Source: a virus | Reading direction: 5' to 3' (one strand) | IMG/VR virus record: IMGVR_UViG_3300025137_000137 | Coordinates: 1-34,155 of that record | DNA length: 34,155 bases | Notes under the pieces: generated by a model | Databases searched by the model: none | What the model was told of the DNA's origin: nothing | Seen by the model: only the letters and a program-made list of their open reading frames with translations | Program-made: the position numbers and the translations under genes | In this document: positions 2-31,741 of the stretch, one piece after another | How positions within the stretch are numbered: the stretch's first letter is position 1 | Layout of the letters: every line of letters starts with the position of its first letter

Positions 2-1057
2 GATGCTGTAAAAGCTTTAACCCAAGCAGGTACAGGTACAGGTGTAGATAGTTTAGCCATTCCTGACCAACCTAAATTTACAGATGAAGGCGTTATGCGT
101 GGACGGGGTATGCAAGATGCGGCGGCACTTGGGCTTGGTACATATACTGCGGCTAAAGATGACAAACCTGCTTCATTTAGTCCGGCGTATATAACACCAG
201 CAGTTAAAGCTCGCGCTAAACAAGATGGCATATCCGAACAGCAAGCGGCTGGTATAATAGAGAAAGAACGTTTAGATAAAGATTTAAAACGTTCTGAGCT
301 TGGGGCAATGTATGACACACAAGCAGAAGAACGTAAAGCAATGTACGGAGATCCGTTAAACCGAACTGATAAACAACTTGCGGCAGAAGACAGGGCGGCA
401 GATAGCGCGTTCTTTCAAGCTATGCCTGAGTATGGTTTCCAAAAGTCAGAGGTGGCTAAGAATAAAGTGCGTGCCGCTAACCGTGCCAGACAAGAAGGTA
501 TATTTGAGGCAGGGCAAAAAGCAGAGCGTGAGAAGTTCGCAAAAGACTTTGAGCGCGGCAAAGTATCTAACGAAGCCTACACTAGAGAGAAAGATAGGTT
601 TGTAACCCAAGCGACATCTTTAATGGAAACACTGTCAAACTTTACCCTACAGGATAGAAAAGAAGCAGGAGAGCGGGCAGACCGACAATTCCAGCAGAAC
701 AAGTTGATAGTATCTCAGGCGATAGAGAAATATAAAGCAGATATAACCGCTAATGTTAGTAAAGAGCAAGCTCAAGCTACGTTGGTATCGGCTATGGCCG
801 ACGTAACAAGTTCGTTAGAAGAAACATACAAAATGCTCATGAAAGGTAAGAAAGGACAAGAACTTGAAGATTTGCAAGAGGCGAAGAGAAATGATTTAGC
901 TTTCCAATTAGCGCCTATACTAATGCAGTTCGATGAAAGCAAACGGTCACAGCTTGAGGATCTATACGGTATAAATAAAACAGCGACAACACCACCACCA
1001 CTTAATGATCCTAACGTGCAAGGCATTGCTGGCGACCTATTAGGTGGTACACCTTAA
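2..1057 (+). CDS. Internal virion (ejection-type) protein, 5'-truncated
   Basis: The reading frame is open from the first bases of the window, so the true start lies upstream; the first in-frame ATG at 95 is not a convincing start. The visible ~351 residues are rich in Lys, Glu, Gln, Arg and Ala, with long predicted helices and no cysteine-rich or enzymatic motif. The tail is a Pro/Gly-rich linker (TATTPPPLNDPNVQG). Such helical proteins typically sit just before the giant ejection protein in short-tailed phages and are carried inside the virion or form part of the ejection channel. Its stop overlaps the next ATG (TAATG at 1055-1059), so the two are translationally coupled. Function is inferred from position and composition only. 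Confidence 0.6.
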   Translation, partial: DAVKALTQAGTGTGVDSLAIPDQPKFTDEGVMRGRGMQDAAALGLGTYTAAKDDKPASFSPAYITPAVKARAKQDGISEQQAAGIIEKERLDKDLKRSELGAMYDTQAEERKAMYGDPLNRTDKQLAAEDRAADSAFFQAMPEYGFQKSEVAKNKVRAANRARQEGIFEAGQKAEREKFAKDFERGKVSNEAYTREKDRFVTQATSLMETLSNFTLQDRKEAGERADRQFQQNKLIVSQAIEKYKADITANVSKEQAQATLVSAMADVTSSLEETYKMLMKGKKGQELEDLQEAKRNDLAFQLAPILMQFDESKRSQLEDLYGINKTATTPPPLNDPNVQGIAGDLLGGTP

Positions 1058-4000
1058 TGGCTTATTCCAGAGAAGAGATTATACAAGCTCTGGATATTGC
1101 TAAACGCCAAAACAATGTTGAAGCAGTATCTGTACTAACCGAAGCGTTGCAAGCAGATGAGGTATACCAAGCCAACCTGTCTCCACTACGTAGGTTAGAG
1201 CTTTCGCAACTCAAAGCGGCAGAGTCTAAGAATAAAAAGTTCAACCCTTTTGCTGATGTAGTGGGTGGGCTTGGTAGTGGTTTTGTTAGCACGTTTGAGA
1301 CGGGTGCTAAAGGCGCTATAGTTCCTCTTGAAGAAGACGCTGAACTACGCGCACGCGATGCTATAACTAATGTTGCTGACAAGTTAAGACCTGAATTCGG
1401 CGATCCCAAATCTCACCTGTATGAATTCTCTTCTGCTTTAGGTTCTTTTGCGGCCATACCTGCATCGGTTGCGGCGGGCGCAGGTATAGGTACTTTGGTC
1501 GGCGGCGTTCCCGGCGGTGTAGTAGGGGGTGGGTTAGCTGGTTTAAGCTCGGCTTTATTACCCGCATCTGGTGAGGCAAGTGAACGAGCTAGAGCATATG
1601 GAGCTACAGAAGAAGAACGTAACCTAGCGTCTTTAAAAGCGCTACCAGTTGGCGCACTTGAACTAGTCGCTCCAGCTAGAATATTTAAATACTTCTCTAA
1701 ATTTAATGTTCCTGTACTCGATAAGATAGAAAAACGATTTGGTAAGGGTCAGTCAGAAAGATGGCGAGATAAGGTAGGAGATGCGCTTGTATCTGGTGGT
1801 GTAGAGGGTACGCAAGAAGCTACCACTGCTATATTACAAAACATGATAGAGCAAGGGTACAACCCAGAAGCTGAACTACTAGATGCTGGTGTAGGTAAAG
1901 ACGCATTACTCGGCGCAGAAGTTGGTACGTTTGTAGATCTGTTCTCACAAGTTTTCCTAAAAGGTGGTAAAGCTGGTAGGTACGCGCAACTAAGAGCGGA
2001 ACAAGAAAAACAACGTAAGGGGCAAGTAGATACTGAAACAGATACTAAAACAGATGCTCCAGTAACTCCTCCGCAAGAGTTTGATGATGACGATGCCGCA
2101 CCTGTAAATGCCGAATTAGAACAATATGCTAGCACAGAACGTGTACCCCTAGAGTTTGCTAATCGTGTATTTGCGTATGCCGAAAAGAATAACGTTAGTA
2201 GGGACGAGGCTAGAGAGGCTATAGAAGCTGAAGATGCCGCCAAAGAACCCGTAAAAGAACCTACAAAACTTAACACAGCAGGAGAAAGACGTAAGGCGGT
2301 TTTTGATTATATAAAAGATAACCTAGATCAAGCGGTAGCGGACGGTGGTATTCGCTCAATCGGCTGGGACGGTAAGCTTGTAGTAAGACCATTTGATAAA
2401 AAAGAACAAGACTACGTAGACACGCAGTTAGAAAAACGAGCACTTGCGGAAGGGCAAGATGCCGATGCCGATGCTAAAGTTGGACAAGATGCTGAAGAAG
2501 CTAAGGACAGTAAGTTAGCTGTAGGGCAGACTGTTACTGTTGTGAAAAATAAAAATGTAGTAACGATAGATGACGATATTGACCCAAAGAAAGTGACTAT
2601 TACCCGCACAAAGGTGTTAGACAACGGTGACATTATCTATATGGGTCAAATTGAAGGGGCCTATAAAGGGCAAAATTTTGCTTGGAATCAGTCCGAATTA
2701 GAAAAAGGCGAGGTTATTCTTAACCCTACACAAAAAGATGTTGACGCACTAAAAGCCAAACAAGACGAATACAGAGCGAGTTTGAGAAAACAACAGGAGA
2801 AAGAAGATGCAGACATTGATAAACGTGCTGACACAACCACAGCTGGAGAGAGCGTTCCAAGTAATACTGGAGGTGTGGGAGACGCAACAAAAGCCGGAGT
2901 CACTGCCGAAAGCACTGAAGGAACTGACACCGGAGCAGTGGGGGGACTTGATAGAAATGTTGACAGAACTGATGGAAGCGAAGGAGATGCAGACGCTACA
3001 CTAGAAGAAACTGATGTGTTAATGGATCCGAGTCAAATTGCTATTCAAACTGGCGAAAGAGTGGTTAAAAAGGGAGCCGCGTTTCCTTTAGTTACATCAG
3101 AGGCTGACCCCACTGCGACAGGTAGAACTGTAGGGCAAAAAGCAACTAGTGACAGAGCTAAAGCGGGAATAGGGGCTTTAACTAAAGCAGAAGAGAAAAT
3201 AGAAGCCGGAAAAGCTACGCTAGTGCCAGCCGCTACACCTACAGGGAGAATACCCCTAGACACAGTAGGGTTAAAACCTCTAGGTAAGCTACGCCAAGAA
3301 TTAATTAAGAAAGACCAAGATGAGCTTGTATCAACGCGTAGTATGGCTGGTCAAAAAGCCCCGTCTAAAAAACAACTAGACGACAAAGCAAACTACTATG
3401 ATACTGCGGCGGGCATCCAAAAACTGCTGACTGAAGCTAACAATCGCGGTATAAAAATTACTAAACAAGACAGGCTTAGGATAGAAAAAGGGCCAATGTT
3501 TAGTAAACCTAAGAAACGTTCGCCGGTTATTACTGAACCTTTTAACGAAACGCAATTAGCAGAAATACAAGCTTATCAGGGCAAGCTTAAACGGGATTTA
3601 ACTCCTTTAGAAATAGATGCGCAAAACGTAGAAGCTGAAACGTACGTAAAAAACTATGAGAAAAGAATGTTACTTGGTTTACAAAACGTAATACCTGACT
3701 CTCAAGATCCAACTTCTAGGAGAGATATTCTAGCTTTACGTGATCTACAACAACGACCTTTGGAAAAACAAAAACCCGCTAAAAAGAGAAAAGGAGAATC
3801 TGACGCGGACTTTCAAAAAAGAAGGGACGATTGGTCTATGACCAAAGCGGCTAAAGCCTACTTTGACAACCCAAATAGAATAGTAGATAACATGTTATCT
3901 ATGGAAGGGGATGTAGTTAATTTTGAAACAGGTGAGGGTCAAGGTAAAAAAGTAGTAGCCGATACTAAAAAAGATCCTAAACCAGAAGCCATAGCTGAAT

Positions 4001-7000
4001 TAGAAGCGGATCAATCTTATGAAAACGCGTTACTAGCTAGAGAGTGGGCAGATCAAAACTTATCGCCAGCGTTAAAACAATTCAGACAAACTCAATATAA
4101 ACGATTAACTGATTCTTACACTACTAAACCACCAAAGGGTTCAGAGCAATTAGCGCGTGAAAAAACCGTAGAAAATGCTAAGAAGACAGTAAAAAAACTA
4201 GATGCTATGAGATCCGCCAAAGAAAACAATAGACTGAGAAAAGAAAAAGGATTAAAAGGACAACCAATACAAGTTAAGCTCGACGAAGGTGAAAGAGTAG
4301 CGCCGGAAATAATTAAAAAAGCTAACAAGATTTTGAGGGAAGCCGATGAAACAAGAAAATTTAATAACCTTTCTTTAAAAGAACAGTTAGGTGTACTTGA
4401 TTTAATAGCTGACAACGCTAGAGTTACTGGGCAAGTTATAGAAAGCGCAAAAGACTTATTTGCAAAGGTGGCTGAAACAACAGATACAGCGGTGGGGCAA
4501 GTAGCAAAAGGTGCCGAACCAACAGGCACACAGCAAATTGACGCTCTGAGTGCAGACATAGAAGGCGACAGCATATTTGCTCAAGAGGTTGCAGAAAACT
4601 TTTCTTCTCACGATGATAATCTTGCTGTTCAAGCGATTGTCGGTGATGGTATAACTGTGGATAGTAGCGCTATAGATATTTTTATAGACAACACAGAACC
4701 CGAAATATCAGAAAAAATATCAACCGTGCTAGAAGCATATATGGCTGATGGTGACAAGACTAAACTTAAAAAAGGTTTAAAAGACGCTTACAAACTTGCT
4801 GTAAAAATGGACGAGGAAGGTAGTCTTTTTGCGGCAGATGCCGAAATGATTGGCAATTTAAAACTGAGTATAAACAAACAAATAGATGTTCTTGTAAACA
4901 ACTTAGGTTCAGTGCCTATTGTTATGTACAACAACGGTGAGGCTACAGGGAACTTTACCGCAGAGCAGATTGAAGTATTTGAAAACAGTCAAAAGAGAAA
5001 TGTAAACCGCCAAAGAGCAAAAGCAAGAAGAAGAATGACCGAGTCTTTCGCTAAGTACATAGGTGCAGACCCTAAACGAGAAGACAGGTTTAAGAGAAAA
5101 AGTAAAGCTAGTCAAGAACGACAAAAAGAAAGATACTTCAAAGCGCTAATGGACGAAGACCCTAGCCTAAAAAGAATTATGACAAGCGACCAGCAAACTG
5201 CTGGACAATTTCAACCTTCCGGTGGTGGAGCTATTATAATAAACCAAAGTATTGACGGTGGCTTGAACTTACATACCGTGTTACATGAAATGACACATGC
5301 AGGTACACTAAGTACTATTAATGACCCAAACAGTAAGTTAGGTAAAGAATTTAAAGAGTTATATAAAGCGGCTAAAGAAGCAGACAATAATAGCTCTAGG
5401 TTTAGTAGTTACGGCCTTACAAATCCAGACGAGTTTGCGGCAGAGATTTTTAATAATCAAGAGTTTATTGATGAGATTACTCAGGTTTACCTACAAGCAA
5501 AACCTAATGGTAAGGTAGAGCCGTTAAGTCTTTGGCAAAAAATTGCTAATTGGTTTGGTAAATGGTTTAACCGTAGACCAATATACATTGAAGCTGACGG
5601 CTCTTACAACGGTGCTAAACTCGCAGAGCGTGCAAACTTGTTAGTGTTAAGTATGTTACGGCCCCACACAGACACGACCACGTTAGATCAAATAACCGCT
5701 GTAGACATGAGTAAGCCTCAAAGCGTAGATAAAATACTCGGACGTTCTTTTTATAGTCGTAAACAACCACCATTAACACGTAAACAACAAACTTCTTTTA
5801 TAGATAAAACCAGCGAACTTTTTAAGGAAGAAGGGCCAGAGTGGGTTAAGGATAAGATGGCCAGCATACTGCCTTCCAAAGCCATGTCTGAGGCGGCGAG
5901 TAATGTATACAAACCGTTAGGTGATCTGTATACGGAGGCGCACCAAACATTTGAACTGCAACGTGGTGATCTAAAAAGAATGGACGACAATGTTACTAGC
6001 TCAGTTGAACTAGTAGATAGCTATACTAAAACATTGACTAACGAACAGGTAGATGAATTACATAACTTGATGGACGATGCTACTAGGGTATACCGAGTAG
6101 ACCCCACTGCTAACATTAACGAGTATAGTAAATTTTGGTTGGCATACAGACAACACTCTGGTAACAACGCGCCGATAATACGTAAATCGTTTGATACTGC
6201 AAAAGATAGAGATGCGGCTATAGAAGCTAGAAACAAAAAATTCCCTGATAACAAGGCATGGAATGATGGAGATCTTGACCAAGCAAAAATAGATATATTT
6301 CCAGAACTACAGGCTAGGTACAAAGCATTACCAAAGAACGCTAAGTTGGCGTATAAAGAAGTAGAAAGATTATACGAAAGTATGTTTCAACAGTTACAAG
6401 AAAAGTTGTTTGGGGACATAGATAGTGATACAACCATAGACCCTGCAACTGGGCGTAAAATCAAAAACGATTTGTTTGCTAAGTTGTTTGCCTCAACAAC
6501 ACTTAAACCTTACTTCCCCCTAGACCGTGAAGGCAAGTACAAAATAAGATACGAGTTAAGCCCAGATAGGCATTCGGAGTTAGACCAAATACAAACAGTC
6601 ATGGTAGATACCAAAGCTGAAGTAGATAGACTACTTGCAGTGCTTAACAAAGATCCTGACGTTGTGGGCGACCCCAAGGTAAGCCTAGTAAAAGATAGTA
6701 TAAAAGATTTAGAAAAAGTACCACCTACAAAGTTTGTTAGGGAGACGTTAGAATATTTAAAAGAGGCTAAAGTAGATCCAGAAGTATCACAAAAAATACT
6801 TACTCTCTATATTGATGCTTTACCAGAATCAAGTTATGCCAAGAGTTTACGCCAAAGGGCGGGTATAGGCGGCGCTAGTAAAGATCAAACAGGCTATGTA
6901 CTATCCAAAAAAGCTAGAGACTTAGGTAGGCAGATAGTAAGAATAGAGTACGGATCGAAACTACATAAATTAAAAGCTCGACTAGATGAGATGGATAAGA

Positions 7001-8820
7001 GTGGGCAAATACCTGAAGCAACCGGTAAGACTGCTAAGGCTCTTACAAGTAAAGACGTTATAGTTAAAGACCTAGACGAGCGTATTAACTTTGCCATAAA
7101 TCCTACTTCTGCTAATTGGTCTATGGTAGCTAACAGACTAGCATTCTTGTATACCATAGGGTTTAACGTTTCGTCTGCTGTTGTGAACTTATCCCAAATA
7201 CCTTTAGTTGTTTTACCATATATGACAGCTAGGTATGGTTTGAAAAACACTATGCGTGCGTACAAAGATGCTAACGTCCTACTTATAAACAGTGGTGTAT
7301 CAAAGGGTGGTCGTACGATAGCGGGCACGGAAGTAGATGGTAGGTCTTACACTCCAGAACTAATAAAATATTTTAGGGTAAACAAAGAAGGAGAGTTAGA
7401 ATTAAACGAAGATAAGTTTAAAGATATTGTCGGGCGCACAGATAAACTGAAAGAACAAGTGGCCGAGATGCAACCTTTAGTACAACTTGCTTATGAGAGA
7501 GGGCAACTTAACGAATCTCACTTGAGTGATTCATTAACACTTAAAGAAGATGGATCAAGAAAGACTTTTATGGACAAAGCAACCACTGTATCGGCGTGGT
7601 TTTTCCACAATGGTGAGCAACTTAATCGCCAAACTGCTATGACTATGGCGTACTTACTAGAAGTGCGAGCTAAGAAAGAAACTTTAGGTAGAGATACGTT
7701 AACAGATGCAGAAATGGAGTCTGCCGCACAAAGAGCTTTGTCTCAAACACAAGATACCAACGCAGGGTCTGTAATAGAAACTGGCCCAAGAATGTCGCAA
7801 AACCAATTTGGTAGGGTAGCATTGATGTATAAGCCTTACGGCATACAAATGTACTACACCATGATTAAGTCTGCTAGACAACTTCTTAAAAACCTGTTTC
7901 CCGGAAATGACGTTGTGTCAAGAACACAAAGAAACATAGCGTTTAAAGAGTTAGCAGGTGTGCATCTAACCTCAATATTGTTTGCTGGTGCTAGAGGCAT
8001 ACCCCTGTACGGCGCAATAAAAATGTTGTTTAACATGTTTGCCGATGATGATGAAGAAGATTTTGATATTGTAGTTCGTAAAAAAATTGGTGAAGAACTG
8101 TATAAAGGCGGTATGACTTGGTTGACAGGTGTTGACGTTTCGCAACGAATAGCGTTGTCACAACTTGTATTTAACGCTAATAGGTATAACCCAGACGCAT
8201 CTTTAGAGGAAACATTGTTCTATGTGTTGGGTGGCCCCGCTGGTAGTGTAATTAAAGGGTACGAGCGGGCGTATAAAGATTTTAGAAATGGGCAGTACGA
8301 ACGTGCGTTTGAGGCCGCCATACCTACGGCGTTCCGCAACATGTATAAATCCACTGTACGATACCCAAGAGATGAGGGTATGCTAACTAGACGTGGTGAC
8401 CCAATATACAGTGATATTAGTAAAGGAGAATTAGTTGGGCAGTTTGTTGGTTTTACACCCAAAGAATACACTGAACGCCAAGAAATAAATATGGCAGGTA
8501 AGCGTATTGATGAGTCTATTAGGAGTCAACGATCTAGCCTGACTAAAAGATTTTATATTGCTCTGACTGGTGATGATGGCGTTGAAGCGGGTAATGTGTT
8601 AGATGAGATAGTTAAGTTTAACGACAAGCACCCTGAAGCATTTATATCACTGGCTACCATAAAACGATCAAATAAAATGCACACTAAGATAAGTATGACC
8701 ATGCACAATGGTATTACGATAAGTAATAACTACAAGTACGGTATGGCAGAGCTACAAAGTGGGATAGATCAAGGGTTTAACTTAGGTTTAGGTGAATGGT
8801 TAAGTAGCGCTATGAGATAA
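1057..8820 (+). CDS. Giant polyvalent internal virion protein with HExxH metallopeptidase motif
   Basis: This 2,587-residue protein is probably ejected with the DNA. Residues ~126-170 are a Gly/Ala-rich hydrophobic stretch that could insert into membrane. Residues ~330-700 are charged and of low complexity. HEMTH at 1410-1414, followed by PDEFAAEIF at 1457-1465, fits a gluzincin-type zinc metallopeptidase (two His ligands plus a downstream Glu). A second hydrophobic region lies at ~2014-2060 (LAFLYTIGFNVSSAVVNLSQ), and the C-terminal part resembles the conserved tail of large polyvalent phage proteins. The peptidase could process virion proteins or act on the cell envelope during entry; the sequence does not say which. 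No RNA polymerase motif was seen, so it is not an obvious N4-type virion polymerase. A second ORF is overprinted at residues ~584-649. Confidence 0.75.
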   Translation: MAYSREEIIQALDIAKRQNNVEAVSVLTEALQADEVYQANLSPLRRLELSQLKAAESKNKKFNPFADVVGGLGSGFVSTFETGAKGAIVPLEEDAELRARDAITNVADKLRPEFGDPKSHLYEFSSALGSFAAIPASVAAGAGIGTLVGGVPGGVVGGGLAGLSSALLPASGEASERARAYGATEEERNLASLKALPVGALELVAPARIFKYFSKFNVPVLDKIEKRFGKGQSERWRDKVGDALVSGGVEGTQEATTAILQNMIEQGYNPEAELLDAGVGKDALLGAEVGTFVDLFSQVFLKGGKAGRYAQLRAEQEKQRKGQVDTETDTKTDAPVTPPQEFDDDDAAPVNAELEQYASTERVPLEFANRVFAYAEKNNVSRDEAREAIEAEDAAKEPVKEPTKLNTAGERRKAVFDYIKDNLDQAVADGGIRSIGWDGKLVVRPFDKKEQDYVDTQLEKRALAEGQDADADAKVGQDAEEAKDSKLAVGQTVTVVKNKNVVTIDDDIDPKKVTITRTKVLDNGDIIYMGQIEGAYKGQNFAWNQSELEKGEVILNPTQKDVDALKAKQDEYRASLRKQQEKEDADIDKRADTTTAGESVPSNTGGVGDATKAGVTAESTEGTDTGAVGGLDRNVDRTDGSEGDADATLEETDVLMDPSQIAIQTGERVVKKGAAFPLVTSEADPTATGRTVGQKATSDRAKAGIGALTKAEEKIEAGKATLVPAATPTGRIPLDTVGLKPLGKLRQELIKKDQDELVSTRSMAGQKAPSKKQLDDKANYYDTAAGIQKLLTEANNRGIKITKQDRLRIEKGPMFSKPKKRSPVITEPFNETQLAEIQAYQGKLKRDLTPLEIDAQNVEAETYVKNYEKRMLLGLQNVIPDSQDPTSRRDILALRDLQQRPLEKQKPAKKRKGESDADFQKRRDDWSMTKAAKAYFDNPNRIVDNMLSMEGDVVNFETGEGQGKKVVADTKKDPKPEAIAELEADQSYENALLAREWADQNLSPALKQFRQTQYKRLTDSYTTKPPKGSEQLAREKTVENAKKTVKKLDAMRSAKENNRLRKEKGLKGQPIQVKLDEGERVAPEIIKKANKILREADETRKFNNLSLKEQLGVLDLIADNARVTGQVIESAKDLFAKVAETTDTAVGQVAKGAEPTGTQQIDALSADIEGDSIFAQEVAENFSSHDDNLAVQAIVGDGITVDSSAIDIFIDNTEPEISEKISTVLEAYMADGDKTKLKKGLKDAYKLAVKMDEEGSLFAADAEMIGNLKLSINKQIDVLVNNLGSVPIVMYNNGEATGNFTAEQIEVFENSQKRNVNRQRAKARRRMTESFAKYIGADPKREDRFKRKSKASQERQKERYFKALMDEDPSLKRIMTSDQQTAGQFQPSGGGAIIINQSIDGGLNLHTVLHEMTHAGTLSTINDPNSKLGKEFKELYKAAKEADNNSSRFSSYGLTNPDEFAAEIFNNQEFIDEITQVYLQAKPNGKVEPLSLWQKIANWFGKWFNRRPIYIEADGSYNGAKLAERANLLVLSMLRPHTDTTTLDQITAVDMSKPQSVDKILGRSFYSRKQPPLTRKQQTSFIDKTSELFKEEGPEWVKDKMASILPSKAMSEAASNVYKPLGDLYTEAHQTFELQRGDLKRMDDNVTSSVELVDSYTKTLTNEQVDELHNLMDDATRVYRVDPTANINEYSKFWLAYRQHSGNNAPIIRKSFDTAKDRDAAIEARNKKFPDNKAWNDGDLDQAKIDIFPELQARYKALPKNAKLAYKEVERLYESMFQQLQEKLFGDIDSDTTIDPATGRKIKNDLFAKLFASTTLKPYFPLDREGKYKIRYELSPDRHSELDQIQTVMVDTKAEVDRLLAVLNKDPDVVGDPKVSLVKDSIKDLEKVPPTKFVRETLEYLKEAKVDPEVSQKILTLYIDALPESSYAKSLRQRAGIGGASKDQTGYVLSKKARDLGRQIVRIEYGSKLHKLKARLDEMDKSGQIPEATGKTAKALTSKDVIVKDLDERINFAINPTSANWSMVANRLAFLYTIGFNVSSAVVNLSQIPLVVLPYMTARYGLKNTMRAYKDANVLLINSGVSKGGRTIAGTEVDGRSYTPELIKYFRVNKEGELELNEDKFKDIVGRTDKLKEQVAEMQPLVQLAYERGQLNESHLSDSLTLKEDGSRKTFMDKATTVSAWFFHNGEQLNRQTAMTMAYLLEVRAKKETLGRDTLTDAEMESAAQRALSQTQDTNAGSVIETGPRMSQNQFGRVALMYKPYGIQMYYTMIKSARQLLKNLFPGNDVVSRTQRNIAFKELAGVHLTSILFAGARGIPLYGAIKMLFNMFADDDEEDFDIVVRKKIGEELYKGGMTWLTGVDVSQRIALSQLVFNANRYNPDASLEETLFYVLGGPAGSVIKGYERAYKDFRNGQYERAFEAAIPTAFRNMYKSTVRYPRDEGMLTRRGDPIYSDISKGELVGQFVGFTPKEYTERQEINMAGKRIDESIRSQRSSLTKRFYIALTGDDGVEAGNVLDEIVKFNDKHPEAFISLATIKRSNKMHTKISMTMHNGITISNNYKYGMAELQSGIDQGFNLGLGEWLSSAMR
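2807..3004 (+). CDS. Candidate overprinted small protein inside the giant gene (+1 frame)
   Basis: This 65-codon ORF lies wholly within the giant gene. ATG at 2807 is preceded by AGGAG (2795-2799) at an ideal 7-base spacing. The product reads as an ordered, acidic, helical protein with Trp, Leu and Met in regular positions (for example LTPEQWGDLIEMLTELMEAK), without a membrane segment. In the same stretch the host frame encodes a low-complexity Thr/Gly/Asp/Ala linker with almost no hydrophobic residues and an unusual preference for GGA glycine codons, as if free to be shaped by the other frame. Against it: codons in the small frame are rich in CTG, GAG and AAG, unlike neighbouring genes, and chance ORFs of this length occur. 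No function is assigned. Confidence 0.45.
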   Translation: MQTLINVLTQPQLERAFQVILEVWETQQKPESLPKALKELTPEQWGDLIEMLTELMEAKEMQTLH

Positions 8821-31150: not shown

Positions 31151-31347
31151 TGGCTAAAACCGTCTTTGACGTGCTTAAAGATAAAATCGTAGAGGATAAA
31201 ACCGCTACGCAAGGATTTCTTAGTGGCGGTGGGGCTAACAGCTACGCCGAATACCGAGAACTAACAGGTAAAATCCGAGGATACGACGCCTGTCTAAACC
31301 ATGTCGATGACCTCGCTAGAAACTATATGGAAGAAGACGATGACTGA
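31150..31347 (+). CDS. Small head-region protein of unknown function
   Basis: This 65-residue protein has one helical segment at each end and a Gly-rich turn (SGGGANSYAEYREL). The order of a short helix, GGG-Asn-Ser-Tyr-x-Glu-Tyr, and a helix with an acidic end (NYMEEDDD) is often seen between portal and scaffold genes in aquatic phages, without known role. Translation is coupled to the portal by TAATG and to the GroES-like gene by an 8-base overlap. Confidence 0.65.
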   Translation: MAKTVFDVLKDKIVEDKTATQGFLSGGGANSYAEYRELTGKIRGYDACLNHVDDLARNYMEEDDD

Positions 31348-31741
31348 ACCAATCCTCGCTGTGCCTGAGCACATACGAAAGGAGCAAGAAGAAGCTACTT
31401 TTGAAGCGCAATTACCAAAACCTGTAGGCTATCGTGTGTTAGTAGCCCTGCCTGAAGTAGAAGAAGAGTACGAAGGTGGGATTATTAAGGCTGAAAGTGT
31501 ACGTAAACGTGAATACATTATGTCCATTATGGGGCTTGTCATAGATATGGGTGACTTAGCCTATAAAGATGATAGCCGTTTTGGTAAAAACTCCGAGCCT
31601 TGGTGTAAGGTCGGCGATTACGTAATGTTTCGAATGAACACGGGCACTCGTTTTACCGTTAGTGGTAAAGAGTACCGTTTAATGAATGATGATTCCATTG
31701 AGGCCGTTATTGACGACCCTCGTGGCATCTATCACGTGTGA
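31340..31741 (+). CDS. GroES-like co-chaperonin
   Basis: In this 133-residue protein, after ~25 extra N-terminal residues, the Cpn10 fold is visible: KPVGYRVLVALPE, an acidic-to-Gly stretch for the mobile loop (EEEYEGGIIKAE), GLVIDMGDLAYKDDSRFG, VGDYVMFRMNTGTRFTVSG and a final DSIEAVI strand. It probably caps host GroEL during folding of the capsid protein, as gp31 does in T4. No GroEL gene is in the window. I start at ATG 31340, which overlaps the upstream stop; the reading to 31301 would lie inside the previous gene. Confidence 0.82.
   Translation: MTEPILAVPEHIRKEQEEATFEAQLPKPVGYRVLVALPEVEEEYEGGIIKAESVRKREYIMSIMGLVIDMGDLAYKDDSRFGKNSEPWCKVGDYVMFRMNTGTRFTVSGKEYRLMNDDSIEAVIDDPRGIYHV

Follow-up and report, generated by a model that had tools for sequence, protein, structure and literature searches.

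A small gene apparently nested in the +1 frame of a giant phage gene, and the overlooked protein family to which it appears to belong

The window, that is, the whole stretch of viral DNA analysed here (34,155 bases), carries a giant gene with a short open reading frame inside it (Table 1), along with portal, GroES-like, DNA polymerase and primase genes. The terminase is closest to those of the uncultured phage 023Pt_psg01 and the pelagiphage HTVC027P (44-46% identity), and given this kinship to pelagiphages the DNA is probably of marine origin. The GroES-like co-chaperonin gene (31301-31741; phrog_3188, 1.9e-15) is situated among head genes, and a gene of the same kind is likewise annotated in HTVC027P, HTVC023P and 023Pt_psg01.

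Table 1. Features of the giant gene and of the reading frame nested in it (window coordinates).
Feature	Position	Strand	Remarks
Giant host gene	1057..8820	+	2,587 aa, large polyvalent / virion-type; phrog_10089 DarB-like, 3.7e-36
Conserved N-terminal domain of the giant protein	1255..1941	+	lies upstream of the nested gene and includes a Gly-rich hydrophobic stretch; relatives conserve residues 50-300
Shine-Dalgarno sequence AGGAG	2795..2799	+	7 bases before the nested ATG
Giant-frame linker over the nested gene	2806..3006	+	Asp/Gly/Thr/Ala-rich, few hydrophobics; relaxed frame; synonymous suppression in relatives
Nested (overprinted) gene, putative	2807..3004	+	65 aa, ATG to TAG, +1 frame of the giant gene; homologues, and dN/dS in other clades
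Metallopeptidase-like region, HEMTH motif (DUF6782-like)	5119..5388	+	HExxH also in relatives
C-terminal region common to DarB-like giant proteins of isolated phages	6307..8736	+

The giant protein resembles the large polyvalent and DarB-like proteins (PMC5512222) in three respects: an LPD39 domain, which scores below the cutoff in the window copy, as does DUF6782, and above the curated cutoff in the relatives L009, L021 and L042; a metallopeptidase-like region, whose HExxH motif is present in the listed giant proteins that have the N-terminal domain; and a C-terminal region matching proteins of isolated phages annotated as DarB-like. Judging by these parts and by the Gly-rich hydrophobic region near its N-terminus, the product may be an ejection protein, which would be packaged and injected.

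The short frame runs from an ATG at 2807-2809 to a TAG at 3002-3004 (65 codons); no other same-strand ORF nested in the gene at 1057-8820 reaches 60 codons. A sequence-only reading of this DNA had pointed to the ATG, to the Shine-Dalgarno sequence and to the frame itself, and all of these coordinates proved correct. The same reading had described the main frame here as a Thr/Gly/Asp linker poor in hydrophobic residues and biased to GGA glycine codons; the composition agrees with that, and GGA accounts for 9 of the 11 glycine codons of the linker vs 19 of 168 in the remaining giant gene (Fisher p = 7e-7).

Such a frame could be simply a chance opening in the +1 reading of the Thr/Gly/Asp linker. 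In order to estimate how often this happens, we fixed the main-frame amino acids and redrew synonymous codons from the giant gene's own usage. The +1 frame of the linker remained open in 0.7% of the draws, and an ATG-initiated +1 ORF of at least 65 codons arose somewhere in the giant gene in 7.7% of them. Thus, the length of the ORF alone is only mildly unusual, and the decision rests on comparative evidence. The open resampled readings of the linker contained on average 29 Leu, Ile, Val, Met, Phe and Trp residues vs 24 in the real ORF; hence the protein-like look of the product, which the sequence-only reading had derived from hydrophobic residues in register, proves little by itself. The comparative evidence that follows, that is, homologues in many divergent giant genes and a small-frame dN/dS near 0.1, leaves the chance explanation with a practically negligible probability. 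As a separate observation, the +1 frame of one giant gene without the nested gene contains an ORF (L024:8283-8471) made of Lys-Pro repeats (MLKPKPKLKP...), which is a reading of a short-period repeat in that gene.

Relatives were collected with the N-terminal part and with the C-terminal part of the giant gene. When the 65-residue product (P0001) alone was compared with them by tblastn, it matched L011 (3e-7), L018 (1e-6), L027 (3e-5) and L009 (2e-4), as well as L013, L006 and others, in each case in the +1 frame and within the giant ORF, or as much of it as the contig contains. A profile built from 16 members recovered 33 distinct copies among the loci gathered after a motif scan of IMG/VR, and a scan with the L013 member added two relatives, L080 and L081, both nested at +1. 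All these copies are nested at +1 within a gene of approximately 2,000-2,600 codons, or the part of it present on the contig, and none of the 33 copies, nor L080 or L081, is free-standing. One further match, to L003 (46% over 41 residues), was discarded as a chance similarity to an ordinary gene sharing the string EVWETQQK. Two records overlap the window almost without change, L002 (IMGVR_UViG_3300025120_000468) being identical over all 13,001 overlapping bases and L019 showing 2 differences in 11,939 bases, and hence they add no evolutionary information.

The family consensus is LTQQEVExAF..I...VPxxLxHLxxxEWxxLxxxLxxLxxEK....H. Among 29 sequences, L8, E14, A16, L37 and W45 (window numbering) are invariant, and T9, P34, L40 and H65 are nearly so; the start codon, the Shine-Dalgarno sequence and the C-terminal His-stop are conserved across the family. 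Over the same alignment columns, the mean identity among 15 representatives is 36% in the small frame and 19% in the giant frame.

We calculated dN/dS from Nei-Gojobori counts on codon alignments of five clades (A-E). In the small frame the values are 0.10, 0.06, 0.14, 0.09 and 0.07, and the apparent giant-frame values in the overlap are 2.9-11 where computable; as the method treats the two frames as independent and ignores the overlap, these ratios are qualitative, with the same direction throughout. The giant-frame pS in the overlap is 0.10, 0.06, 0.015, 0.04 and 0.00, vs gene-wide values of 0.58, 0.46, 0.58, 0.44 and 0.17, so that at least 80% of the synonymous variation is lost there. Segments of equal size with pS as low constitute about 1% or fewer in the two largest clades, A and B, and none in clade C; the corresponding 13.6% in clade D and 3.8% in clade E reflect a ranking blunted by few usable segments or low divergence. 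In a sixth clade (L079, L080, L081) the contrast runs the same way but is weaker (0.20 vs 1.29). The window DNA has no rate estimate of its own, since its sole near copy is identical.

Judged by these substitutions, the +1 frame of the relatives is under strong purifying selection, while what the giant frame encodes there is a linker that looks disordered and varies easily. The proposal that the small frame is the constrained one is thus borne out by the values of 0.06-0.14 in relatives. The pattern that would speak against it, relatives lacking the +1 ORF, its ATG or its Shine-Dalgarno sequence and a near-neutral dN/dS, is not what we observed; it is the main-frame sequence that drifts instead.

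Synonymous suppression can also be caused by RNA or DNA elements alone, in which case the DNA would be conserved for an RNA structure or another cis signal and the small ORF would be incidental. The mismatches, however, are most frequent at the third codon position of the small frame (0.20-0.38) and least frequent at the second (0.00-0.09), which is a coding pattern that preserves its amino acids. Moreover, the copies vary in length while the protein motif is retained. Thus, we consider a cis element very improbable.

In all copies the giant frame is uninterrupted, and hence both products are expected. The small one would be made by ribosomes starting internally, at the Shine-Dalgarno sequence and ATG on the message of the giant gene. 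Shine-Dalgarno-like motifs (4-7 nt) precede all the starts first chosen except those of L013 and L027, where alternative starts are preceded by AAGGAG and, in the case of a GTG start in L027, by GGAG; as a background, a Shine-Dalgarno motif of at least 5 nt precedes 31 of 554 other +1-frame ATGs in the giant genes. Alternatively, ribosomes translating the giant gene could undergo a programmed +1 frameshift, which, with no internal initiation, would yield a truncated giant protein ending in the small domain. The open +1 stretch does begin slightly upstream of the ATG (72 vs 65 codons), and Shine-Dalgarno-like sequences can stimulate frameshifting. On the other hand, nearly all copies retain the ATG with its Shine-Dalgarno-like motif, the protein similarity starts there, and in the sequences that we read, albeit not as a systematic test, we noticed neither a conserved slippery site nor a pausing stop; a frameshift is therefore very improbable. 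Taken together, the homologues, the selection pattern and the start signals make it very likely, with a probability of roughly 0.93, that the ORF at 2807-3004 is a real out-of-frame gene, translated internally into protein.

The predicted product is, with medium confidence, a helical protein of approximately 62-65 residues. The AlphaFold2 model obtained with 29 sequences (pLDDT 71) has helices at residues 10-26 and 42-63 and a short helix at 35-38; internal initiation would give a protein of about 65 residues in which a conserved proline turn separates two main helices. The sequence-only reading had called the product ordered, helical and acidic. The helices are indeed present in the model, with a backing limited to medium confidence by its pLDDT, and a negative charge is usual in the family, although not universal, as the charge is positive in L031 (pI 11.0) and L062 (pI 9.5). 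The window product contains zero cysteines (Cys makes up 0.2% of the residues across the 15 representatives), and no lipobox, lipoprotein signal or transmembrane segment is apparent in its sequence.

Searches of the nested family against Pfam, PHROGs, NCBIfam, PDB and BFVD gave no credible match; the profile matches in PDB are short, involve designed repeat proteins, and comprise no stretch that passes by itself. No significant fold match was found by Foldseek in PDB (with the first model) or BFVD. No match came from a scan of genome contigs for the family, nor from a tblastn search of 50,697 phage records in which three members and one made-up, consensus-like sequence served as the four queries. 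One divergent member (L070:7998-8177), and no other, has a weak match to phrog_37486, a family of 94-aa proteins, over 32 residues (E 9e-4, uncorrected for the 29 members), which is a possible link to a described family. In all, the nested family appears to be a real protein family overlooked by annotation.

The distribution of the gene is patchy. On a tree of the giant C-terminal region, copies occur on both sides of the basal split, and about four presence changes are required, three of them forced by the starred branches; the pattern fits an old nested gene with several (about three or four) losses, and regain by exchange is possible. Each of the 11 larger records carrying the nested gene has exactly one copy, and the 12 records without it at the locus have no copy elsewhere in the portion examined. 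A test for strict linkage between the small gene and the giant protein's N-terminal domain was negative, as the domain occurs without the gene in some giants and the gene without the domain in a few. At the level of close relatives, L027 retains the gene and its sisters L029, L035 and L025 are without much or all of the linker block; L027:874-1176 and these three loci form natural comparison pairs for the presence or absence of the block.

By profile, no copy was found in the stretches fetched from HTVC027P, HTVC023P, 023Pt_psg01, DSL-LC04, Pag-Yong1 and Vibrio phage douglas 12A4. The first three have a gene of 63-72 aa directly 3' of a large structural gene (L073:35920-36111, L074:43482-43691 and L075:42356-42574, respectively); its product has a hydrophobic C-terminal stretch and is unrelated to the nested family.

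As for the function, the sequence-only reading had suggested that the product could be a small virion or host-interaction protein. The nested gene is always inside the giant gene and was found nowhere else, and this favours a role as a partner: the small protein may act on or beside the giant one, as an assembly or solubility chaperone or a minor virion component, a reading to which we give slightly less than an even chance. Genes born by overprinting are expected to have no free-standing copies anyway, and most of the records compared are incomplete. The main rival is that the gene is real and its product is an accessory host-directed protein (for takeover or anti-defence), which would be made late or during assembly and have no link to the giant protein. 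Its patchy presence, as in L027 and its sisters, and the number of changes on the tree would suit such a gene, as would the small size and the lack of known homologues. However, its nested position is constant across very divergent giant genes, the surrounding gene is of the virion type, and neither free nor relocated copies turned up, contrary to the usual mobility of accessory genes. Thus, we regard a host-directed role as rather unlikely, and retain the partner role as the preferred one.

Small genes wholly inside the +1 frame of a larger phage gene are known, the best case being lambda Rz1, an o-spanin embedded in Rz and often missed by gene callers (PMC6139136). The nested gene shares this arrangement. 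Unlike the proline-rich Rz1, its product is a Leu/Glu/Gln-rich helical protein with no visible lipoprotein signal, lipobox or transmembrane segment. A role as an Rz1-like o-spanin was rejected, as there is neither a lipobox cysteine nor an apparent transmembrane segment, and the host gene codes for a giant virion-type protein of 2,587 aa with DarB-like and LPD39-like regions and not for an i-spanin. Another overprinted viral gene is phiX174 E within D. As in overprinted viral genes generally, a second protein would be produced from another frame of an existing gene; what differs is that over the overlap the giant frame is relaxed and codes for a linker, and that, compared with cases of the E/D type, the family is previously undescribed and occurs in tailed phages with larger genomes. 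Overprinted viral genes have been reviewed (PMC8227390).

A text search of the polyvalent-protein paper (PMC5512222) found no mention of overlapping genes, and full-text searches of the open-access literature turned up no account of this nested gene in giant phage proteins. As nested phage genes are already known, with Rz/Rz1 as the best example, and no description of this one was found, we regard it as a new protein family in a new class of host gene. The isolates checked, in the stretches fetched, are without the nested gene; this, together with the discarding of nested genes by standard gene callers, may explain its absence from curated libraries.

Thus, the locus provides a well-supported overlapping gene in tailed phages, present in about 15 divergent lineages, where the constraint is reversed and the hidden frame is the conserved one. 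Tentatively, these may be obligately nested phage genes, where the gene of a giant injected protein also supplies the template for a small partner of its own and the linker is kept mainly to encode that partner. Related phages without the nested gene offer natural comparison pairs, and the finding suggests that more hidden genes could profitably be sought in the disordered linkers of giant phage proteins.
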